In this document: piece after piece, positions 4,476-20,456 of the stretch | Layout of the letters: each line of letters begins with the position of its first letter | Position numbering within the stretch: position 1 is the first letter of the stretch | Translations under genes and position numbers: made by a program | IMG/VR virus record: IMGVR_UViG_3300009034_000237 | Coordinates: 1-20,460 of that record | Source: a virus | Length of the DNA: 20,460 bases | Strand: one strand, 5' to 3' | The notes under the pieces: generated by a model | Seen by the model: the letters and a program-made list of their open reading frames with translations, nothing else | The model's database searches: none | Told to the model about the DNA's origin: nothing

Positions 4476-4541
4476 CTAAAGCTATGTCTCTCTAAGGTTT
4501 GGGCAGACACGTTTTTGTTTTTTGTGCAGAAAGAAGGAACT

Positions 4542-6752
4542 ATGGAGAACTACAAAGTCTTTTTGAAGAACAAGCGAATTGTAGATGCTTCCTTTGGGAA
4601 AAATGTGTCTGATTCTGCAATTCATCCAATGCTTTTTCCTTTCCAGCGGGATATTGTTCGCTGGGCTGTGAAAAAAGGGAGAGCCGCGGTGTTTGCTGAT
4701 ACAGGTCTTGGGAAAACTCACATAGCAACTGAGTGGGCTAGACTTCTTGGAGAAAAAACGTTGATTGTGTCCCCTTTGTCTGTGGCAAAACAGACTGTCC
4801 TGGCGGCAGGAAAAACAGATACAGAGATTAAGTATGTTAGATCGCAGAAAGAGGTGGCGACTTCTTTTGATGTTGATTTATTTATCACAAACTATGAGAT
4901 GCTGGATGCTTTTGACTCCTCCTTTTTTGGGGCTGTTGTGTTGGATGAGAGTAGTATTTTGAAATCTTTTACGGGAAAAATTCGGACGAAGTTGATTGAT
5001 AAGTTTTCTGATACTCCTTATCGGCTTTGTTGTACTGCAACTCCTGCTCCAAATGATATAGCGGAACTTTCTAATCATTCTGCGTTTCTTGGTGTTTTAT
5101 CTCGTGAGAATATGCTTTCTACTTTTTTTGTTCATGATGATAAGGGATGGAGATTGCGGGGGCATGCGGAGGAAGCCTTTTTTCGTTGGTTGTCTTCTTG
5201 GGCAATAAGCTTGAAAAAGCCTTCTGATTTGGGTTTTGAAGATGATGGATTTATTTTGCCTCCCTTGAATGTGACTCCTGTTTTTGTAAGTTCGGAAGAT
5301 ATAGTTAAGGATCTTTTTTCTGATCTTGGTGGAATCCAAAGCAGATCAAAGATACGTAGAGAGACATTGAAAGTTCGCGTTTCTCGTGGAGTAGAAATTA
5401 TTGAAAGTGAAATTGATAAGCAGTGGATTGTTTGGTGTGGGTTGAATGACGAAAGCTCTGCTTTGTCTCGTCTTGTTGAAGGTTCGGTGGAGGTAAAGGG
5501 GTCGGATAGTTTGGAGTACAAAATTTGTTCTTTTGAATCCTTTGTGTCGGAAGATACTAGAATTTTGGTCACGAAGCCTCGCATTGCCGGTTTTGGGATG
5601 AATTTTCAGAATGCAAGCAGGATGGTGTTTGTGGGGCTGTCTGATAGTTTCGAGTCTTACTATCAGTGCATCAGAAGATCCTGGAGATACTTGCAGGATG
5701 AGCCTGTTGATGTGTACATTGTTCTTTCGGAGAGAGAGCGGGGAATATGGGAAAATGTTAAACGGAAGGAAAGAGAGGCAGAGAAAATGTCGGAAAGGTT
5801 GGTTGATTTTGTGAAAGAAGCACAGATTGAAGAACTGTCTCAGTTGGATTCTGGTGAGGGTGAGGGTGTTTTTCAAACAGCAAAGAGCAGTGTGATTACA
5901 GACAGCCACTCTCTTTTTTTGGGAGATAGCGTGGAGAAACTGAAGGATCTTGAAGCTGATTACGTTGATTTCTCTGTTTTTTCTCCTCCGTTTCTGAATC
6001 TTTACACCTATACTCCTTCCGAGAGAGATGTTGGAAATTCTTTGGACGAAGATACTTTTTTTGAGCACTTCAGCTTCATTATTTCTGAGCTTTTGAGAAT
6101 AACGAAGCCTGGGCGTATTTGTGCGGTTCATACTGCGGACGTTCCGGCGCTTTTGTCGAAGGACGGATTTATTGGATTGAAGGACTTTCCTGGAAAGACT
6201 ATCATAGCCTTTGAGCAGAGAGGTTGGATTTATCACGGGCGGGTTACGATTGACAAGAACCCGCAGGCACAGGCTATTCGGACGCACAGCAAGGCTCTCT
6301 TGTTTGTTCAGTTTGAGAAGGACAGTTCTTGGTCTCGACCTGCTATCGGAGACTATGTTCTTCTTTTTCGGAAGCCTGGTGAGAATGCTGTTCCGGTCTT
6401 GCCTGTGGAGAATGGAGAGATGACTCGTGATTTGTGGATTGAGTGGGCGCATCCCGTCTGGTACGGAATAAGGGAGTCTGATACGCTTCAGCACACTGAC
6501 GGCAGAGCTAAGGAGGATGATAAGCATATTTGCCCTTTGCAGCTTGGTACGATAGAGCGGTGCATAAAGCTGTGGTCAAATCCTGGGGAAGTTGTACTGT
6601 CTCCCTTCGCTGGGATCGGAAGTGAGGTATATCAGGCAGTTAAGTTGGGTAGGTATGGGATAGGGATTGAGCTTAAAGAAAGCTATTTTGCTCAGATGGT
6701 TCAGAACATGAGGATGCTGGATGCTGAGTCTCGACAGCAATTTATGTTTTAG
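4542..6752 (+). CDS. SNF2-type helicase / DNA methyltransferase fusion
   Basis: A 736-aa two-part enzyme. The N-terminal part is an SF2/SNF2 ATPase: motif I DTGLGKT at residues 53-59, motif II LDESS with D135/E136, motif III CTATPAPN, motif V GFGMNFQNAS and motif VI YYQCIRRSWR. The C-terminal part is an amino-methyltransferase: catalytic SPPF at 481-484 comes before the AdoMet-binding FAGIGSE at 689-695, the order of beta-class N4-cytosine/N6-adenine enzymes. ATG 4542, preceded by GAAGGA, is preferred to TTG 4515. A DNA-translocating methylase could modify phage DNA for protection from host restriction; target base and site are not readable. No endonuclease domain is seen, so it is not an obvious complete restriction system. 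Confidence 0.85.
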   Translation: MENYKVFLKNKRIVDASFGKNVSDSAIHPMLFPFQRDIVRWAVKKGRAAVFADTGLGKTHIATEWARLLGEKTLIVSPLSVAKQTVLAAGKTDTEIKYVRSQKEVATSFDVDLFITNYEMLDAFDSSFFGAVVLDESSILKSFTGKIRTKLIDKFSDTPYRLCCTATPAPNDIAELSNHSAFLGVLSRENMLSTFFVHDDKGWRLRGHAEEAFFRWLSSWAISLKKPSDLGFEDDGFILPPLNVTPVFVSSEDIVKDLFSDLGGIQSRSKIRRETLKVRVSRGVEIIESEIDKQWIVWCGLNDESSALSRLVEGSVEVKGSDSLEYKICSFESFVSEDTRILVTKPRIAGFGMNFQNASRMVFVGLSDSFESYYQCIRRSWRYLQDEPVDVYIVLSERERGIWENVKRKEREAEKMSERLVDFVKEAQIEELSQLDSGEGEGVFQTAKSSVITDSHSLFLGDSVEKLKDLEADYVDFSVFSPPFLNLYTYTPSERDVGNSLDEDTFFEHFSFIISELLRITKPGRICAVHTADVPALLSKDGFIGLKDFPGKTIIAFEQRGWIYHGRVTIDKNPQAQAIRTHSKALLFVQFEKDSSWSRPAIGDYVLLFRKPGENAVPVLPVENGEMTRDLWIEWAHPVWYGIRESDTLQHTDGRAKEDDKHICPLQLGTIERCIKLWSNPGEVVLSPFAGIGSEVYQAVKLGRYGIGIELKESYFAQMVQNMRMLDAESRQQFMF

Positions 6753-6764
6753 GATAGGGAGACA

Positions 6765-7046
6765 ATGGCTGTGGAGAAACCTGAAATGCAGCAGTTTCAT
6801 TTGTTTGGAGAACAGCAAGAAGAAGACAGTGAGTGGTGGGAAGAAGAGTGGCAGGGAATGCCTGAGTTTGTTCAGGAGGACTTGTCTTCTTATAGAATGA
6901 TAATGGTTCATTTTGGGAGCGAAGAGGCAGTGGATAGTTTTGCCAAACTTGTGGATCAGACGATAACTCCTCGGACCAAAAGTATATGGTATCCAAAGGT
7001 TGATCGGGAGAATCTACTGATTAGAAGGTGTGTTGATGAATCCTAA
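6765..7046 (+). CDS. small acidic protein next to the polymerase fusion, 93 aa
   Basis: The N-terminal half is acidic and rich in E, Q and W (EEDSEWWEEEWQGMPEF). The C-terminal half looks like a compact alpha/beta unit: VHFGSEEAVDSFAKLVDQ, then ITPRTKSIWYPK. From memory, short proteins with this ...IT..T.SIWYP end occur upstream of phage glycosyltransferase genes, but I cannot check that. It overlaps the next gene by 11 nt, so the two are likely translationally coupled. Function unknown; a partner or regulator of the fusion enzyme is an inference from coupling. Confidence 0.6.
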   Translation: MAVEKPEMQQFHLFGEQQEEDSEWWEEEWQGMPEFVQEDLSSYRMIMVHFGSEEAVDSFAKLVDQTITPRTKSIWYPKVDRENLLIRRCVDES

Positions 7047-10000
7047 ATATCCTGTGTATATCATATCTAAGGGAAGGTGGGAATCTCGCATGACAAGCAA
7101 GGCACTTGAGAAGATAAAAGTGCCTTACTATATTGTTGTTGAGCCTCAAGAATATGATAAGTATGCTGCTGTCATAGCTTCTAAGAAAATACTTGTATTG
7201 CCATTTTCTAACTTGGGGCAGGGATCAATTCCTGCCCGCAACTGGGTTTGGGAGCATTCAATTTCTATTGGAGCAGAAAGGCATTGGATGTTGGATGATA
7301 ATCTTAGGGTTTTTTATAGATTGAATAGAAACATAAAGTATAGAGTTGGTTCAGGGACGATTTTTAGAGTCATTGAGGATTTTGTGGATAGATATGAGAA
7401 CATCGGGATTTCAGGTATGGAGTATGAGTTGTTTATACAAAGAAAGGAGAAAGTGGCACCTTATAGACTCAACACACGAGTTTATTCCTGTATTCTCATC
7501 AAAAATGATATTCCTTTTAGATGGCGGGGGAGATACAATGAAGATACAGATTTGTCTATAAGGGTTTTGAAAGCTGGTTGGTGCACTATATTGTTTCAGG
7601 CATTTCTATGTGACAAAATGCCAACAATGAGTATGAAAGGTGGCAATACAGAGGAGCTTTACAAAGATGATGGTCGTTTGAAGATGGCCCAGTCTTTGCA
7701 GGAACAACACCCTGATGTCGTGAAGATAACAAAAAAATGGGGCCGTTGGCAGCATCAAGTGGATTATAGACCTTTTAAGGGGAACAAATTGATAAAAAGG
7801 CTGGGAGTATTTGTTCAAAAAGGAGTGAATAATTATGGGATGGTGCTGAAAAACATAGGTGAGCCTGTTCAAGAGATTATAGTGCATCAGCCTCAAGCAA
7901 TAGAGCAAGGTGCAAAAAGGCGCTGTGACGGTTGTAGATTTAGTTCAAAGATAGTCAGGGGAGAGGGGCCAGAGCTTTCTGATTTGGTGGTGGTTGGAGA
8001 AGGGCCTGGAAAGCAGGAGATGGATGCTGGACTACCTTTCCTTGGCGTTGCTCCTTCTGGAAAGCTGCTGAACAAGTGTCTAAAGGGTATTGGTTTTGAT
8101 AGGAAAGATGTTTATGTTACGAACGCCTTCCTTTGTGGAGGTTCTCATAGACCGAAGGAACTCTTAGGTCGGTGTAGGAGGGAGCTAATAGGTGAGGTAA
8201 AGCAGAGGAAGCCTAAAGTGATTTTGGCTTTGGGAGCTGTTGCCTCAAAGTGTTTTGGAGATACTGCTAAGGGAGAGGCTGTTTGGGTTGATGAGGTATG
8301 CGCTTTTGTGGTTTCAGCATACCATCCTGCCTTTGTTCTCAGGAATAAGTTTTTCAAGGGGAAGCTCTTAGAACAGTTTGACACGGCAGCAGCAGCTATG
8401 AAGCCTATGGAGGATGTAGATTACTGGTTGGTGGATACCTGGGAGAAGTTTGAATCATTACAGAGTGTTCTTGTTAATACAAAGAAGATTGCAGTGGATG
8501 TTGAGACCACGGGTTTGGATCGAGATGATAAACTTTTGGGGATTGGGATTTGTTGGGAGCGAGGGAGAGCTTCATATATTCCGATCAGGTGGCAGTCTTT
8601 TTTTGGAGAATTGGATTTATACTGGGGGAAACGTTCGGAGTGGGAGGTAGTAGATAAGTTTCTCTCTGATCTATTGAGTAGAGCGAGGAGCTGTTTTCAC
8701 AATGCTAAGTTTGATTTGAGATTCTTGTCTCAATCTGGAGTTGAGTCTGAAAAAGTAAAACTTGCTTTCGATACAATGTTGGCTTCCCATGTGTTGGATT
8801 GTGATCTGTCCCATAGATTGGAATCTCTTGGGAAGAGAAAGTTCCCAGCGCAGTTTGGGCGGTACAAGGAGGAGACATCTGAGGCTATTAAGAAGAAAGG
8901 AGGTTTGCTTGGACTTACCTTGAAGCAGGTAACGAGGCGTTGCTGTGGCGATGCGGACCTGACTTTTCGCTTGGCTGAACAGCAAGCAGAGGAGTTAGCT
9001 GCTAAAGGACTTGATGGGCTGTTCTATAATTTTTCGATGCCGATGGTCAAGTTTTTGTTGGACGTGGAGAATACGGGGGTGCAGTTTGATGTTGAGAGAG
9101 CCAAGGTGTTGTCTGAGGCTTTGGGGGAGCAAATTCGGTTGGTAGAGGAGAAAGTATTTAGGGTTGTGGGGGAGCGGTTCTTGATTTCCTCTGATCAACA
9201 GTTAGGCATGGTACTGAAAAAGATAGGTGTTCCTCTTAGGAGGAAGACTGCTAAGGGGCAAGTTTCTGTGGATGAAGATGCATTGTTGCCTTTTGAGGGC
9301 AAGTTTCCGATTGTAAGGAAAATTCTGGAATATCGGGGCCTGAGGCAATTGAAAAGCACTTTTGTTGATGGAGTTTTGCCACGAGTGGATTCATTGGGAA
9401 GGCTGCATACTACTTTTTCTCAGCATGTTACCCCGACGGGTAGATTGTCGAGTGAGAAGCCAAATCTTCAGAATGTTCCTACTATGAGAAAGGATAAGAG
9501 ATTTCGGCCTTTGTATATAGCAGGAGAAGGGAAGAAATTAGTTTGTGCTGATTATGCCCAAGAACAGTTGCGAATCTTGGCTTGGTATTCTAAGGATGCA
9601 AGCCTTTTGGCTGCATTTGAGTCTGGTGAGGATATTCATTTGAGGACAGGAGCGGATATATTTGGAAAGGATATTGTGAGTATAAGTTCGGAGCAACGAC
9701 AACAGGCGAAAGGTGTAAACTTTGGGGTTATTTTTGGGCAGTCAGCACAGGGTTTAGCTGAGGCGTTGGGAGTAACGGAGGCAGAAGCAACCAAGTTTTT
9801 GGATCGGTATTTTAAGGTATATGATGGTGTTAAGGCATGGGTAAAGGCAGTTGAGGATTTTGTTTTGAAGAATGGTTATGTTGCGAATGCTTATGGAAGG
9901 GTTCGGCCTTTGCCTTGGGTGGTGGATGAGAAGAAACGACAGGAAGCTTACCGAAAAGCAGTGAATACCCTTGTTCAAGGCACGGCAGCGGACTACGCAA

Positions 10001-10218
10001 ACTATGCGATGGTTAGAGTGGGGAAGGCCCTGAGGGAAGGAAATTATGGGGCAAGAGTAGTGCTGTTGGAGCACGACGAGATCGTGATCGAAGTTCCTAT
10101 TGAGGAAGTGGAGAAAGTGGTTCCAGTTATTAGGGAAGGGATGATAGAGCCTATACTGCCGGTGGACATAAAAATGGAAGTGGACATTAAAGTAGTGGAC
10201 AATTGGGGAGAAGATTGA
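7036..10218 (+). CDS. polA: fusion: glycosyltransferase (TAGT-like) - uracil-DNA glycosylase - DNA polymerase I
   Basis: One open frame of 1060 aa from ATG 7036. Residues about 1-260 resemble the TET-associated glycosyltransferase (GT-A) family: YPVYIISKGR start, WMLDDN as the DxD-type metal site, and NEDTDLSIRVLKAGW. Residues about 290-440 are a family 4 uracil-DNA glycosylase: GEGPGKQE...GLPFLG, an iron-sulfur cysteine set C297, C300, C367, C380, and AYHP. Residues about 480-660 are a 3'-5' exonuclease: DVET (D488, E490), D560 and D639. The polymerase follows: motif A DYAQEQLR (D839), O-helix K-GVNFG (F896 at the E. coli 762 position), motif C HDE (1013-1015). There is no 5' nuclease domain. 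It would copy DNA, excise or sense uracil, and perhaps add sugar to modified bases. Domain calls are firm for UDG and Pol, good for the glycosyltransferase; coupling of the activities is inferred. Confidence 0.88.
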   Translation: MNPKYPVYIISKGRWESRMTSKALEKIKVPYYIVVEPQEYDKYAAVIASKKILVLPFSNLGQGSIPARNWVWEHSISIGAERHWMLDDNLRVFYRLNRNIKYRVGSGTIFRVIEDFVDRYENIGISGMEYELFIQRKEKVAPYRLNTRVYSCILIKNDIPFRWRGRYNEDTDLSIRVLKAGWCTILFQAFLCDKMPTMSMKGGNTEELYKDDGRLKMAQSLQEQHPDVVKITKKWGRWQHQVDYRPFKGNKLIKRLGVFVQKGVNNYGMVLKNIGEPVQEIIVHQPQAIEQGAKRRCDGCRFSSKIVRGEGPELSDLVVVGEGPGKQEMDAGLPFLGVAPSGKLLNKCLKGIGFDRKDVYVTNAFLCGGSHRPKELLGRCRRELIGEVKQRKPKVILALGAVASKCFGDTAKGEAVWVDEVCAFVVSAYHPAFVLRNKFFKGKLLEQFDTAAAAMKPMEDVDYWLVDTWEKFESLQSVLVNTKKIAVDVETTGLDRDDKLLGIGICWERGRASYIPIRWQSFFGELDLYWGKRSEWEVVDKFLSDLLSRARSCFHNAKFDLRFLSQSGVESEKVKLAFDTMLASHVLDCDLSHRLESLGKRKFPAQFGRYKEETSEAIKKKGGLLGLTLKQVTRRCCGDADLTFRLAEQQAEELAAKGLDGLFYNFSMPMVKFLLDVENTGVQFDVERAKVLSEALGEQIRLVEEKVFRVVGERFLISSDQQLGMVLKKIGVPLRRKTAKGQVSVDEDALLPFEGKFPIVRKILEYRGLRQLKSTFVDGVLPRVDSLGRLHTTFSQHVTPTGRLSSEKPNLQNVPTMRKDKRFRPLYIAGEGKKLVCADYAQEQLRILAWYSKDASLLAAFESGEDIHLRTGADIFGKDIVSISSEQRQQAKGVNFGVIFGQSAQGLAEALGVTEAEATKFLDRYFKVYDGVKAWVKAVEDFVLKNGYVANAYGRVRPLPWVVDEKKRQEAYRKAVNTLVQGTAADYANYAMVRVGKALREGNYGARVVLLEHDEIVIEVPIEEVEKVVPVIREGMIEPILPVDIKMEVDIKVVDNWGED

Positions 10219-16720: not shown

Positions 16721-17572
16721 TTGGGCAAGCTAAAAGATAAAGTGGAAAGCCAGAAGGCCAGGTCGGGTCACAAAAAGCCGAGCAAGAAATGGCAGCTGGA
16801 CTCCGGTGAGGTTCGCGGCATCAAGTCTGAGGACGTGTGGCGAAAGCACTTCGATGAGAAGCAGTCCATAAAGGATATCGCGGAATCTTATGGCGTGTCG
16901 GTGGAGGCGATACATTATCACATTAGAAAGAAGACCAGGCTTCCGAAAGGTGTAAAGTCGGAGGACGTGTGGAGGATGCACTTCGATGAGGAAAAGCCTG
17001 CAAAGGAGATTGCTGCCTTCTACGGCGTGACGGTAGATGCGATAGGATACCACCTTCGCAAGCTGGACGACCTTTCTCGGGCGGCTAAGAAGAAGATAAA
17101 CAGGGGGAAAACGCTGAGGCTTCTCAGGAACAGGGAGTTGGTGGAAAGTAAGGGTTTGGAAGATCCAAGCGAGATTGGGAGAACTTTCGATGTATTTCTT
17201 GCGTTGTCGGATGCCAAAGAGATTGCTGAATCGGTTATAGACGAAGCTTATGATCACATAGACGAACAGAAAAGTCAGGATATACTTCTCCGCGCCGCTG
17301 GGGAGATTAGAAGGCAGGCAGAAGTTACGGCAGATCTTATAATGAAACTGGAGTTTTACAAGGACACAGAAGCAGCTCTGGACATGATCGTGAGCGTGAT
17401 CAGAGAGGAGTGCAATGAAGGAGTTGTCAGGAGGATACTCGACCGGCTCAAAATACGGGGAGGTACTCAGCCGGTTCCGCTCGAAGCTGTCGGGGGAGGT
17501 GGAGAAGCCGGAGGGAGCATCGAAGGCTTGGAGCAAGGAATTGGAGAAGGAGTTTCTGAGTCAGCCGATTGA
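16721..17572 (+). CDS. terminase small subunit-like protein with tandem HTH repeats
   Basis: A 283-aa DNA-binding protein directly upstream of the terminase ATPase, so probably the small terminase subunit that recognises packaging sites. It carries a duplicated unit at about residues 33-71 and 77-115, each reading SEDVW-x-HFDE followed by a helix-turn-helix (IKDIAESYGVSVEAIHYHI; AKEIAAFYGVTVDAIGYHL). A helical middle (about 140-245) fits an oligomerisation domain; the C-terminus is glycine-rich and overlaps the next gene by 158 nt. Start TTG 16721 with AGGAGGG 12 nt upstream. A transcription regulator is possible, but position favours TerS. Confidence 0.65.
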   Translation: MGKLKDKVESQKARSGHKKPSKKWQLDSGEVRGIKSEDVWRKHFDEKQSIKDIAESYGVSVEAIHYHIRKKTRLPKGVKSEDVWRMHFDEEKPAKEIAAFYGVTVDAIGYHLRKLDDLSRAAKKKINRGKTLRLLRNRELVESKGLEDPSEIGRTFDVFLALSDAKEIAESVIDEAYDHIDEQKSQDILLRAAGEIRRQAEVTADLIMKLEFYKDTEAALDMIVSVIREECNEGVVRRILDRLKIRGGTQPVPLEAVGGGGEAGGSIEGLEQGIGEGVSESAD

Positions 17573-18431
17573 GACGTTGATAGATGATCCTTACTTTCTG
17601 GGGAGAAAGGAGGATCTGTATCCGGCGCACAGGGACGATATTATTGAATTGTTTGCGAGGAAAGATGCGGGGGAAAGTCTGTACGTTTTTTTGGATACGG
17701 AGGCCATAGGCGCGGGAAAGACCTATAAGGCGGCAGTTATTTTATGGATACTTATATACAGATTACTATGTCGGACTAAGCCGCAGGAGTACTTAGGGTT
17801 GGATAGGGATTCTGTATTGTCATATATCTGCATGAGTAGAGATGAGAAAAAAGCGAAAAAAGTCACGTTCACAAAAATTATGTCATTTTTCGATTGTCAG
17901 TTCTTTAATGAGTATTTCCCTCCTGTGGTTGGCTTTAGACTTCTTCGGGAGTATGCTCAAGGAACAAGGAAATTTTATCCCTCTGAGATACGGTTTCCAA
18001 AAAATATAGTTCTTTTTCCTGGATCAGGGCAAGCTGCTTCTGCTCTTGGGTATGATTTGCTTGGAGGAATAGTTGACGAGACGAACTTTTTGGAATACAC
18101 TGAGCGAAGTAAAAAGCAGGCAAGTGATGATACTACGCATCTTTATGATGCTGCGGAGGACATGTTTCGCCACATAATTTCGCGGGTCGAAAGTCGGTTC
18201 ATGTATGGTGGAAAACTTCCTACGGAGTGTCTTTTAACTCTTATTTCTTCTCATCGTTACAAAAATGATTTTCTGGACAGGAAGATTAAGGAGTGCAAGG
18301 AAGGCAAAAATAAGCAAGCTATGTGGCGATGGCGAGCACTGTGGGAGGCAAAACCAAAGATGCATAAAAATCGTGTGATTTGGTCAGGAGAGGTTTTTTC
18401 GTTTGATACGGAAACGATGGAAGTTGTCTAA
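17415..18431 (+). CDS. terminase large subunit, ATPase part only (C-terminally truncated)
   Basis: The DNA-packaging motor ATPase: Walker A EAIGAGKT (96-103), Walker B LLGGIVDE with D221/E222, and the coupling motif LTLISSH (274-280). At 338 aa it lacks the C-terminal RNase H-like nuclease domain of typical TerL (usually 450-600 aa). The frame runs into the first array repeat and stops at its TAA (18429-18431), right after FSFDTETMEVV, a linker normally followed by more protein. The missing domain is not found later in this window. ATG 17415 has GGAG upstream; it overlaps the small-subunit gene by 158 nt. Likely truncated or split by the array/IscB insertion; the nuclease piece could lie beyond the window. 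Confidence 0.8.
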   Translation: MKELSGGYSTGSKYGEVLSRFRSKLSGEVEKPEGASKAWSKELEKEFLSQPIETLIDDPYFLGRKEDLYPAHRDDIIELFARKDAGESLYVFLDTEAIGAGKTYKAAVILWILIYRLLCRTKPQEYLGLDRDSVLSYICMSRDEKKAKKVTFTKIMSFFDCQFFNEYFPPVVGFRLLREYAQGTRKFYPSEIRFPKNIVLFPGSGQAASALGYDLLGGIVDETNFLEYTERSKKQASDDTTHLYDAAEDMFRHIISRVESRFMYGGKLPTECLLTLISSHRYKNDFLDRKIKECKEGKNKQAMWRWRALWEAKPKMHKNRVIWSGEVFSFDTETMEVV

Positions 18432-18607
18432 GTGCTAGTTGAGCCTCAACTACCATTACGACATCTTTAAGAGCTAAGGAGGTGAAGACGATGGACAGTC
18501 TAAGTGCTAGTTGAGCCTCAACTACCATTACGACCAACCATCCCGCTTCTGATCCCCTCATAAATAAACAGTCTAAGTGCTAGTTGAGCCTCAACTACCA
18601 TTACGAC
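18426..18607 (+). CRISPR. mini CRISPR-like array, three 37-bp repeats, two spacers
   Basis: Three identical 37-bp repeats at 18426-18462, 18498-18534 and 18571-18607 flank spacers of 35 bp (18463-18497) and 36 bp (18535-18570). Each repeat starts GTCTAAG and ends ATTACGAC, with an internal 8-bp palindrome TAGTTGAG-C-CTCAACTA. The spacers are unrelated to each other, except that both end in ACA next to the repeat. Repeat identity with near-constant spacing is the CRISPR signature, although two spacers is minimal. No cas1 or cas2 is in the window. The array runs straight into the omega RNA and iscB on the same strand, so spacers would sit 5' of repeats, as in Cas9/IscB guides. The first repeat contains the terL stop codon. 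Confidence 0.85.
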
Positions 18608-18814
18608 CGTTGTAATGGCGTTAGACCAGCCTAAGTCTTGAATAAAGACTACGTTATCTATGTCATGATACCTTTGGATGCTTCTCCAGTCTGAAGCCCT
18701 ATCGTCTGTTATTAAACAGTTCTGGGCACAGGAGCAGTGTAGCAGACATGAAAAGCATAGATAACATTGGCGAGGAGACCATAACCACCTTCGGGTGAGT
18801 TGGAGTAATCCAAA
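18571..18814 (+). ncRNA. omega RNA of IscB, including last repeat (scaffold)
   Basis: A non-coding stretch with nested stems immediately upstream of iscB, where the omega RNA lies in this family. Guide-proximal part: repeat 3 pairs with the next 20 nt, outer stem GTCTAA (18571-18576) with TTAGAC (18621-18626) and inner stem CCATTACG (18598-18605) with TGTAATGG (18611-18618). Next is the hairpin AGTCTT/AAGACT (18634-18650). A perfect 10-bp long-range stem, GTTATCTATG (18653-18662) with CATAGATAAC (18756-18765), encloses GTCTG/CAGAC, GCCC/GGGC and CTGTT/AACAG. A CACC-TTCG-GGTG hairpin ends just before the iscB start. The natural guide would be spacer 2. The 5' and 3' ends are not mapped. Confidence 0.85.
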
Positions 18815-20104
18815 ATGAGAGTTTTTGTATTGAGTAATACCAAGAAGCCGTTGATGCCGTGCAGCCCTGCTCGTGCACGCATATTATTAAAGGCGGGCAA
18901 GACTGCTGTGTATCGGAGACAACCGTTCACTGTTATTTTGAAATACCGGTCAGATGGGGATACTCAGCCGATCGAGTTCAAAGTTGATCCAGGAAGCAAA
19001 GTTACGGGCATAGCGTTGGTTGGGGTTTTTCCGAAACAGGGTAGAATAGTCCTCTGGGCAGCTAATTTGGAGCACAGGGGACAGGCGATTCGGTTGCGTC
19101 TCGGACGCCGCCGGATGCTGCGTAGAGGACGTAGAGGACGCAAGACTCGGTATCGCCCGCCGAGATTTCTGAACCGCACCAGGCCGAAAGGCTGGCTTCC
19201 GCCGTCTTTGAAGTCGAGAGTTGATAATGTTTCTCAATGGTATGGACGGATGTTGTTTTGTGTTCCTATCACTGAAACCCACGTGGAGACAGTGCGTTTC
19301 GATCTGCAAAAGATGGAGAATCCTGAGATTTTGGGAGTGGAATACCAGCAAGGGACTCTTTTGGGCTATGAATGCCGGGAATATGTTCTTGAGAAATGGG
19401 ATCGAAAATGTGCTTACTGTGGTGCAGAGCTTGTTCCGTTAGAAGTGGAGCACATTGCTCCCAGGAGCAAAGGTGGGTCGAATAGAGTTTCCAATTTGAC
19501 ACTGGCGTGTATTTCCTGTAATCAGGCAAAAGGGAATCGTTCAGTTGAGGATTTCTTGAAGGATAAGCCGGAAGTATTAAAGCGTATCCAAACTCAGGCT
19601 AAAGCTCCCCTGCGGGATGCCGCTGCCGTAAACGCAACTCGATATGCCATTGGGACAGAGTTGAAGGGCTATGGTCTGCCAACCTCGTTCTGGAGCGGAG
19701 GTAGAACGAAGATGAACCGGGTTGCACAGGGCTATGAGAAAGATCATTTTATGGATGCGGTTTGTGTTGGAGAGACAGGTGTCTCTGTTCATATTCCAAA
19801 TAATTTGAAACCTTTGCATATTAAGGCAACTGGGCAAGGAAAACATCAAGTAGTTCGGACGGATAAGCATGGTTTCCCTTGTGCAAAGGCTGGGAGAGTC
19901 AAGCGGGTTCATGGATTTCAAAGCGGGGATCTGGTTAAGTTGGTTCAGCCAAAGGGCAAATATGTAGGAACGTATTTTGGGCACTTGGCCGGTATTCGTA
20001 AATCTGGAAGCTTCGATGTGAAAACATTGTCAGGAAAGATTCCGGCTTCATGGAAACACTTCATATTGATTCAGCGTATGGATGGCTATGTTTACTCTAA
20101 GTAA
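18815..20104 (+). CDS. iscB: IscB RNA-guided DNA nuclease
   Basis: A complete 429-aa IscB. The PLMP domain is at the N-terminus (KKPLMPCSPARARILLKAGK), followed by RuvC-I KVDPGSKVTG (D58), an arginine-rich bridge helix (about 90-120), RuvC-II HVETVRFD (E158), an HNH domain with zinc cysteines C199, C202, C232, C235 and catalytic H213 in EVEHIAP, and RuvC-III KDHFMD (H311, D314). The C-terminal ~100 residues form the TAM-interacting region. All catalytic residues are present, so a double-strand-cutting nuclease is expected, guided by the adjacent omega RNA. There is no Cas9-like REC lobe and no TnpA transposase nearby. The start ATG 18815 has TTGGAG upstream. Unlike most IscBs it is attached to a CRISPR-like array, and it sits in a phage genome. 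Confidence 0.95.
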   Translation: MRVFVLSNTKKPLMPCSPARARILLKAGKTAVYRRQPFTVILKYRSDGDTQPIEFKVDPGSKVTGIALVGVFPKQGRIVLWAANLEHRGQAIRLRLGRRRMLRRGRRGRKTRYRPPRFLNRTRPKGWLPPSLKSRVDNVSQWYGRMLFCVPITETHVETVRFDLQKMENPEILGVEYQQGTLLGYECREYVLEKWDRKCAYCGAELVPLEVEHIAPRSKGGSNRVSNLTLACISCNQAKGNRSVEDFLKDKPEVLKRIQTQAKAPLRDAAAVNATRYAIGTELKGYGLPTSFWSGGRTKMNRVAQGYEKDHFMDAVCVGETGVSVHIPNNLKPLHIKATGQGKHQVVRTDKHGFPCAKAGRVKRVHGFQSGDLVKLVQPKGKYVGTYFGHLAGIRKSGSFDVKTLSGKIPASWKHFILIQRMDGYVYSK

Positions 20105-20117
20105 AAAGGAGAATCTA

Positions 20118-20456
20118 ATGAACATAGTAGAAAAGCTTGACTGCTTGGCCGAACTGAACTCAGAGATCGAGGCAATCGAGGCTCCACTGAGCAGTCAGAT
20201 TGATGCGCTGGCGAACCAGATGTTGGCCTTGTCCTCGGAGAAGAGGGAGCAAAGGGTGGGATTGGTGAAGTCTATTCAAAGCGATGTTCTCGAACTGAGG
20301 CAGACCATCCGAGGTGAGTTTCTCCAAGCGATATACCGAAAGGGTGTAGTTACTTGGGATGCTTCTGCTTTGCGGGAACATGCTATTGACCACCCTGAAA
20401 TTCTCGAACTGAAGAAGATGGGGAAGCCGAGCGTGCGGATAGCAGAGGTGAAATAA
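20118..20456 (+). CDS. coiled-coil phage protein, 112 aa
   Basis: ATG 20118 follows AAAAGGAG and starts 13 nt after iscB. Residues about 1-75 are heptad-like amphipathic helix (ELNSEIEAIEAPLSSQIDAL; QSDVLELRQTIR), then VTWDASALREHAIDHPEILELK with a basic end. The shape recalls small Gam-like or host-nuclease-inhibitor proteins of phages, but no signature proves it. It is not the missing terminase nuclease domain. Its stop overlaps an ATG at 20456 that begins a further gene cut off by the window edge. Confidence 0.6.
   Translation: MNIVEKLDCLAELNSEIEAIEAPLSSQIDALANQMLALSSEKREQRVGLVKSIQSDVLELRQTIRGEFLQAIYRKGVVTWDASALREHAIDHPEILELKKMGKPSVRIAEVK

Follow-up and report, generated by a model that had tools for sequence, protein, structure and literature searches.

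The locus analysed here raises the question of why terL, the gene for the large terminase subunit and an essential gene, stops inside the first repeat of a short array that precedes iscB. A preliminary description of the sequence had proposed that the array and iscB form an element inserted in terL. The window, as the whole stretch of 20,460 nucleotides under analysis is called here, is a 20.5-kb fragment of an incomplete phage, and the record ends at 20461, about 2 kb past the junction of terL with the element. The features described between 16721 and 20456 lie on the plus strand.

The shortened terL extends from 17415 to 18431 and encodes the ATPase domain alone. Its last native codon is GTT (18423 to 18425), after which the frame reads GTC (18426 to 18428) and TAA (18429 to 18431), both within repeat 1, as had been described. 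The gene is thus made up of 337 native codons plus the GTC TAA of the repeat, and the 338-amino-acid product ends in ...ETMEVV*. The product was identified as a terminase ATPase, its best PHROG being the terminase large subunit; tblastn matched it to 233 phage records at up to about 35% identity, and among the matches listed most were annotated as terminase. The collections searched contained neither a TerL more than about 35% identical to that of the window nor a close relative in which the site is empty.

The TerL was compared with a set of 86 relatives (80 metagenomic relatives and six others). In 82 of them the ORF extends 212 to 596 amino acids past the point at which the window's TerL stops. 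The C-terminal half, of about 300 amino acids, is kept in 84, and the remaining 2 run off the ends of their contigs. None of the relatives lacking the element ended TerL at this residue, a result that could have gone against an insertion. Two relatives, L162 with a frame break and L155 with an internal stop, were considered as further broken TerLs and rejected, the C-terminal half being present in both.

An HMM built from 78 full-length relatives matched the product with 202 bits over residues 34 to 316, and the match ended at model position 308 of 624, in agreement with the earlier statement that the ATPase is present and the nuclease domain is not. By inspection, the residues after the match (WEAKPKMHKNRVIWSGEVFSFDTETMEVV) resemble the conserved consensus WDvKPegrFsGkwFhVFiGDeTRKPRIL, in which the sub-stretch FsGkwFhVFiGDeTRKPRIL of the relatives corresponds to WSGEVFSFDTETMEVV in the window. 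Since the last residues resemble the next conserved stretch, terL is probably native right up to repeat 1. The cut had been placed in a linker (FSFDTETMEVV), a placement that we correct: it probably falls in a conserved stretch just past the HMM match, outside any free linker.

The nuclease half was absent from the window. A profile search of all six frames over the whole window gave no match (best E = 0.94), and in the positive control the first 125 residues of this half alone gave E values of 5e-25 to 2e-49 in 12 relatives. Of the two parts of a functional TerL, the ATPase and the RNase H-fold nuclease half, only the former is present. The truncation of terL is real in the sequence, and chance is no explanation for it. 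A sequence-profile search of solved structures gave no match. Directly upstream, and overlapping the start of terL, an HTH protein is encoded (16721 to 17572), whose position and type would be those of a terminase small subunit; it showed no family match as TerS, but the relative L003 has an HTH protein similarly placed ahead of terL.

terL is a known host of mobile introns and inteins in the literature, and the window resembles such cases in that terL is interrupted. The TerL of L003 (positions 6480 to 9656, 1058 amino acids) apparently carries an intein in the ATPase motif (GKC...HN/S), as judged by inspection. The window differs in having neither an intron family nor a splicing element, and its frame ends in a stop. 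Given that no intron or other Rfam family was found between 16700 and 20460, even at an E value of 10, splicing cannot rescue terL, and rescue by an intron or intein was rejected.

The array comprises three repeats of 37 nt. Repeat 1 (18426 to 18462; GTCTAAGTGCTAGTTGAGCCTCAACTACCATTACGAC) holds the terL stop codon, and repeats 2 (18498 to 18534) and 3 (18571 to 18607) are identical to it; spacer 1 (18463 to 18497) measures 35 nt and spacer 2 (18535 to 18570) 36 nt. Repeat 3 also constitutes the first 37 nt of a full-length HEARO RNA (omegaRNA, RF02033; 18571 to 18785), which was matched with 129.2 bits (E 1.4e-28; gathering score, 83) over model positions 1 to 211 of 211, the first base of the match being the first base of the repeat. 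Directly 3' of repeat 3 lies an anti-repeat, GTTGTAATGGCGTTAGAC, that pairs with the repeat. As read from the sequence, the array is the 5' stem of the omegaRNA in triplicate, separated by spacers of 35 to 36 nt. Because copies of the HEARO 5' stem are followed here by IscB, the locus is a CRISPR-associated IscB; the repeats do not make up a CRISPR standing on its own.

No convincing target was found for spacer 1, which resembles a ribosome-binding site plus ATG: matches within the window were at chance level, and phage records gave weak matches only (E 1 to 4). Spacer 2 had no target in phage records. An imperfect match of spacer 2 to positions 2584 to 2619 of the window (minus strand), inside a DNA-clamp-like ORF, was rejected; it covers 26 of 36 positions (equalled by about 0.002 of random real fragments) with 15 of 20 next to the repeat, and was thus taken as probably due to chance. 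The end of terL (18413 to 18420) and spacer 1 (18489 to 18496) have in common an 8-nt run, ACGATGGA, near the repeat (p ∼0.003). Neither the repeat sequence nor the terL end sequence occurred elsewhere in the databases searched.

The iscB gene (18815 to 20104) encodes 429 amino acids with RRXRR (PF14239, 8e-70) and HNH (PF01844, 2e-12) domains. Residues D58, E158, H213, H311, and D314 were invariant among 9 aligned sequences, and the nuclease is probably active. In the IscB tree the protein grouped with L179 (100/99) and then with L008 and L009, all of which are single-guide elements. Among the 92 loci examined, long tandem repeats in front of IscB were found, besides the window, only in L233 and in L238 and L239, the last two carrying the same repeat. 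The three array-bearing IscBs were placed in three separate spots of the tree, and the simplest reading is that the small array of the window arose separately. The array of L233 (2822 to 3511) has ten repeats of about 37 nt on a viral contig of 452 kb, and that of L239 (3377 to 3689) has five of about 36 nt on a viral contig of 223 kb; in both, the degenerate repeats are those most distant from IscB.

Two further groups of known systems were compared with the locus. CRISPR-associated IscB loci were reportedly described by Altae-Tran et al. in 2021. The window is like them in having regular 37-nt repeats and 35- to 36-nt spacers in front of an omegaRNA and IscB, a layout also seen in L233 and L239. 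It differs in that it has three repeats only, its nearest kin in the tree are single-guide elements, and a protein-coding gene runs into the 5' end of its array; in L239, by contrast, the upstream ORF, which is dUTPase-like, stops just before the array. With HEARO-IscB elements (ISC, IS200/IS605-type OMEGA) the window shares a full HEARO directly upstream on the same strand, an IscB with RRXRR and HNH domains, a left edge at the GTC of HEARO, and a right edge before ATGA. Unlike these, it has three copies of the repeat instead of one, its two flanks cannot be traced to a single target gene, and its right end is short, without the CTAAAG...GGGTTTCC motif. CRISPR-associated IscB is already known, and the window adds a small example from a viral contig; the nearest members of its clade have single guides. 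Its one odd feature, the fusion to terL, is also the least secure. A 2025 "CRISPR-associated IscB system" appears in the reference list of PMC12991159, and an origin of CRISPR arrays from the omegaRNA guide-adaptor stem has been proposed (PMC9581776).

The element boundaries were taken from relatives. About ten near-identical copies in Vreelandella, with differing flanks on both sides, start at the GTC of HEARO and end directly before ATGA. In many other relatives the element likewise ends before ATG, mostly ATGA, about half of them with a long right end, CTAAAG...GGGTTTCC, and others just after the iscB stop, where they often supply the ribosome-binding site of the next gene. In a survey of 67 relatives the right-end motif lay close behind iscB in 33; among the 34 without it, not all of which were resolved, several have an ATGA no more than about 20 nt past the end of iscB. 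In the window the right end (20105 to 20117) is short, includes the ribosome-binding sequence AAGGAG, and reads TAAAAAGGAGAATCTA; it is followed at 20118 by ATGAAC, in accordance with the ATGA or GTGA expected at this place; the same layout was found in L214 and L226. From this right end, the predicted element spans 18426 to 20117, with the boundary before ATGAAC, and ORF112 (20118 to 20456) would be the flanking gene. The product of ORF112, complete with 112 amino acids, is unrelated to TerL and was predicted to form a two-helix hairpin (pLDDT 70). No Pfam match and one insignificant PHROG match were obtained for it, and no phage, plasmid, or IMG/VR match. A Gam-like protein was considered for ORF112 and dropped, with no result in its support, and ORF112 was rejected as the TerL C terminus for lack of similarity, even though joining the flanks places it in the frame of terL. 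Across the element, the joined flanks read from terL into ORF112 as one frame of 454 codons, for which the chance expectation is one frame in three.

Stops at the left edge of such elements proved to be common. At 14 of 36 junctions, the window counted, and hence at 13 of the 35 others, an ORF of ≥80 codons enters the element from upstream and terminates there. A stop inside the first HEARO stem is therefore not diagnostic of a broken gene, and annotators may treat an upstream ORF stopping inside HEARO as ordinary. What is unusual here, unlike an ordinary stop inside the element, is an essential gene without its conserved half of about 300 residues. In L199, L201, and L180 the first G of the element completes the TAG stop of the upstream gene (TA from the gene, GTC from the element), as if the TAA of a TAATGA overlap had become TAG by insertion before ATGA. 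In L214 (404 to 6254), a viral contig, two HEARO-IscB elements lie a few kilobases apart, and both upstream genes stop within the HEARO stem.

A simple insertion predicts TerL directly after 20117. Since ORF112 is found there, either terL would be rearranged or defective at this locus or the contig would have been joined in assembly at the element, and the flanks do not form a single empty target site, the left one being terL and the right one having no similarity to TerL. The proposal of an insertion in terL thus held for the left side, where the gene is cut at the end of the array and IscB, and failed on the right. It could be kept if the cassette were longer, with ORF112 and later genes as cargo and the nuclease half beyond 20461. 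The left junction would fit this reading, and many positions in terL would suit an element that inserts in front of ATGA or a motif like it, but in 33 of the 67 relatives the right-end motif follows iscB closely, the relatives examined showed no recognisable cargo gene after iscB, and ORF112 begins at ATGA exactly where the element should end; we consider it unlikely. Plain insertion is thus unsupported, and the contig may be rearranged, defective at terL, or misjoined at the element. Highly improbable, in our view, is a naturally short TerL whose nuclease is encoded elsewhere, with the element placed between intact genes, the usual situation for elements of this kind. The start of ORF112 at the expected ATGA would agree with this, as would the 13 of 35 other elements with an upstream ORF stopping in the first stem or at the junction (in three of the 13 by the TAG mentioned above). 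Nevertheless, the C-terminal half is kept in 84 of 86 relatives, the other two being untestable at contig ends, and the in-frame reading of the joined flanks argues that the ancestral gene did not end here.

An assembly chimera, in which a phage with intact terL was joined to another replicon bearing the IscB array, is doubtful but has a clearly better chance than either of these. A spacer of about 36 nt derived from terL and lying before repeat 1 could have let the assembler cross, or two copies of the element could have been collapsed. Such a join would account for terL running exactly to repeat 1, where a spacer would end, and for a right flank that is not TerL; the loss of an essential domain would vanish, and the contig, a fragment of 20.5 kb, stops 2 kb further on. 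However, an overlap of 36 nt is shorter than the k-mers of late assembly rounds, which usually exceed that length, and the terL end and the repeat were found nowhere else. Codon usage is also equal in iscB (0.053) and terL (0.052). The base composition of the element (0.272) is close to the upper limit of the values seen elsewhere in the contig (0.203 to 0.275) and neither supports nor excludes a foreign origin; codon usage and tetranucleotides are likewise not decisive.

The explanation that we favour, tentatively and with somewhat less than even confidence, is a CRISPR-associated HEARO-IscB element sitting at a non-functional terL and carrying a terL-derived guide, with a second event after, or instead of, the insertion. 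Translation of the ATPase half would enter repeat 1 and stop, with the nuclease half missing beyond the element. The right flank is not TerL, which suggests that a second event followed or replaced a simple insertion, e.g., recombination between two element copies, or a deletion that brought terL and the element together. Two copies per contig occur in L214 and L184, so recombination between copies is possible. The genome would be packaging defective unless TerL were supplied in trans. It is unlikely that a free-living phage would stay without an essential gene for long, and this favours an assembly join and speaks against the explanation that we prefer.

In the IscB family the guide is the DNA just 5' of each repeat; on this logic the 3' end of the truncated terL would serve as the first guide. 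By analogy with TnpB, IscB could cut the element-free terL of co-infecting phages, as in homing or a gene drive, and the element's own copy of terL would be spared by replacement of the target-adjacent motif with the repeat. A TnpB element is reported as a gene drive that uses the flank of its insertion site as guide and cuts element-free copies (PMC11870625). The NTGA target-adjacent motif needed by IsrB, a related nickase (PMC9581776), agrees with the ATGA sites observed here. We regard it as distinctly unlikely that the window holds a new phage-borne IscB mini-array with the phage's own terL as first guide, i.e., a selfish single-guide element turning CRISPR-like and targeting an essential gene of rivals.

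Two further ORFs of the window were recorded. One ORF (7030 to 10218) combines, by Pfam, a TET-associated glycosyltransferase, a uracil-DNA glycosylase-type domain, and a DNA polymerase A with 3'-5' exonuclease. Such a fusion is unusual and suggests that the phage DNA carries modified bases; the polymerase gene, used as a route to close relatives of the phage, gave single-domain matches only. Another (4515 to 6752) begins with parts of an SNF2-type helicase and ends with an N6/N4 DNA methylase.

If the junction is an assembly join, it means that HEARO-IscB elements generate false-looking gene truncations in viral contigs. If it is real, the locus, in which the repeat is plainly the 5' stem of the omegaRNA, would bear on how single-guide OMEGA elements became CRISPR arrays, and on whether phages carry RNA-guided drives against the essential genes of their competitors.
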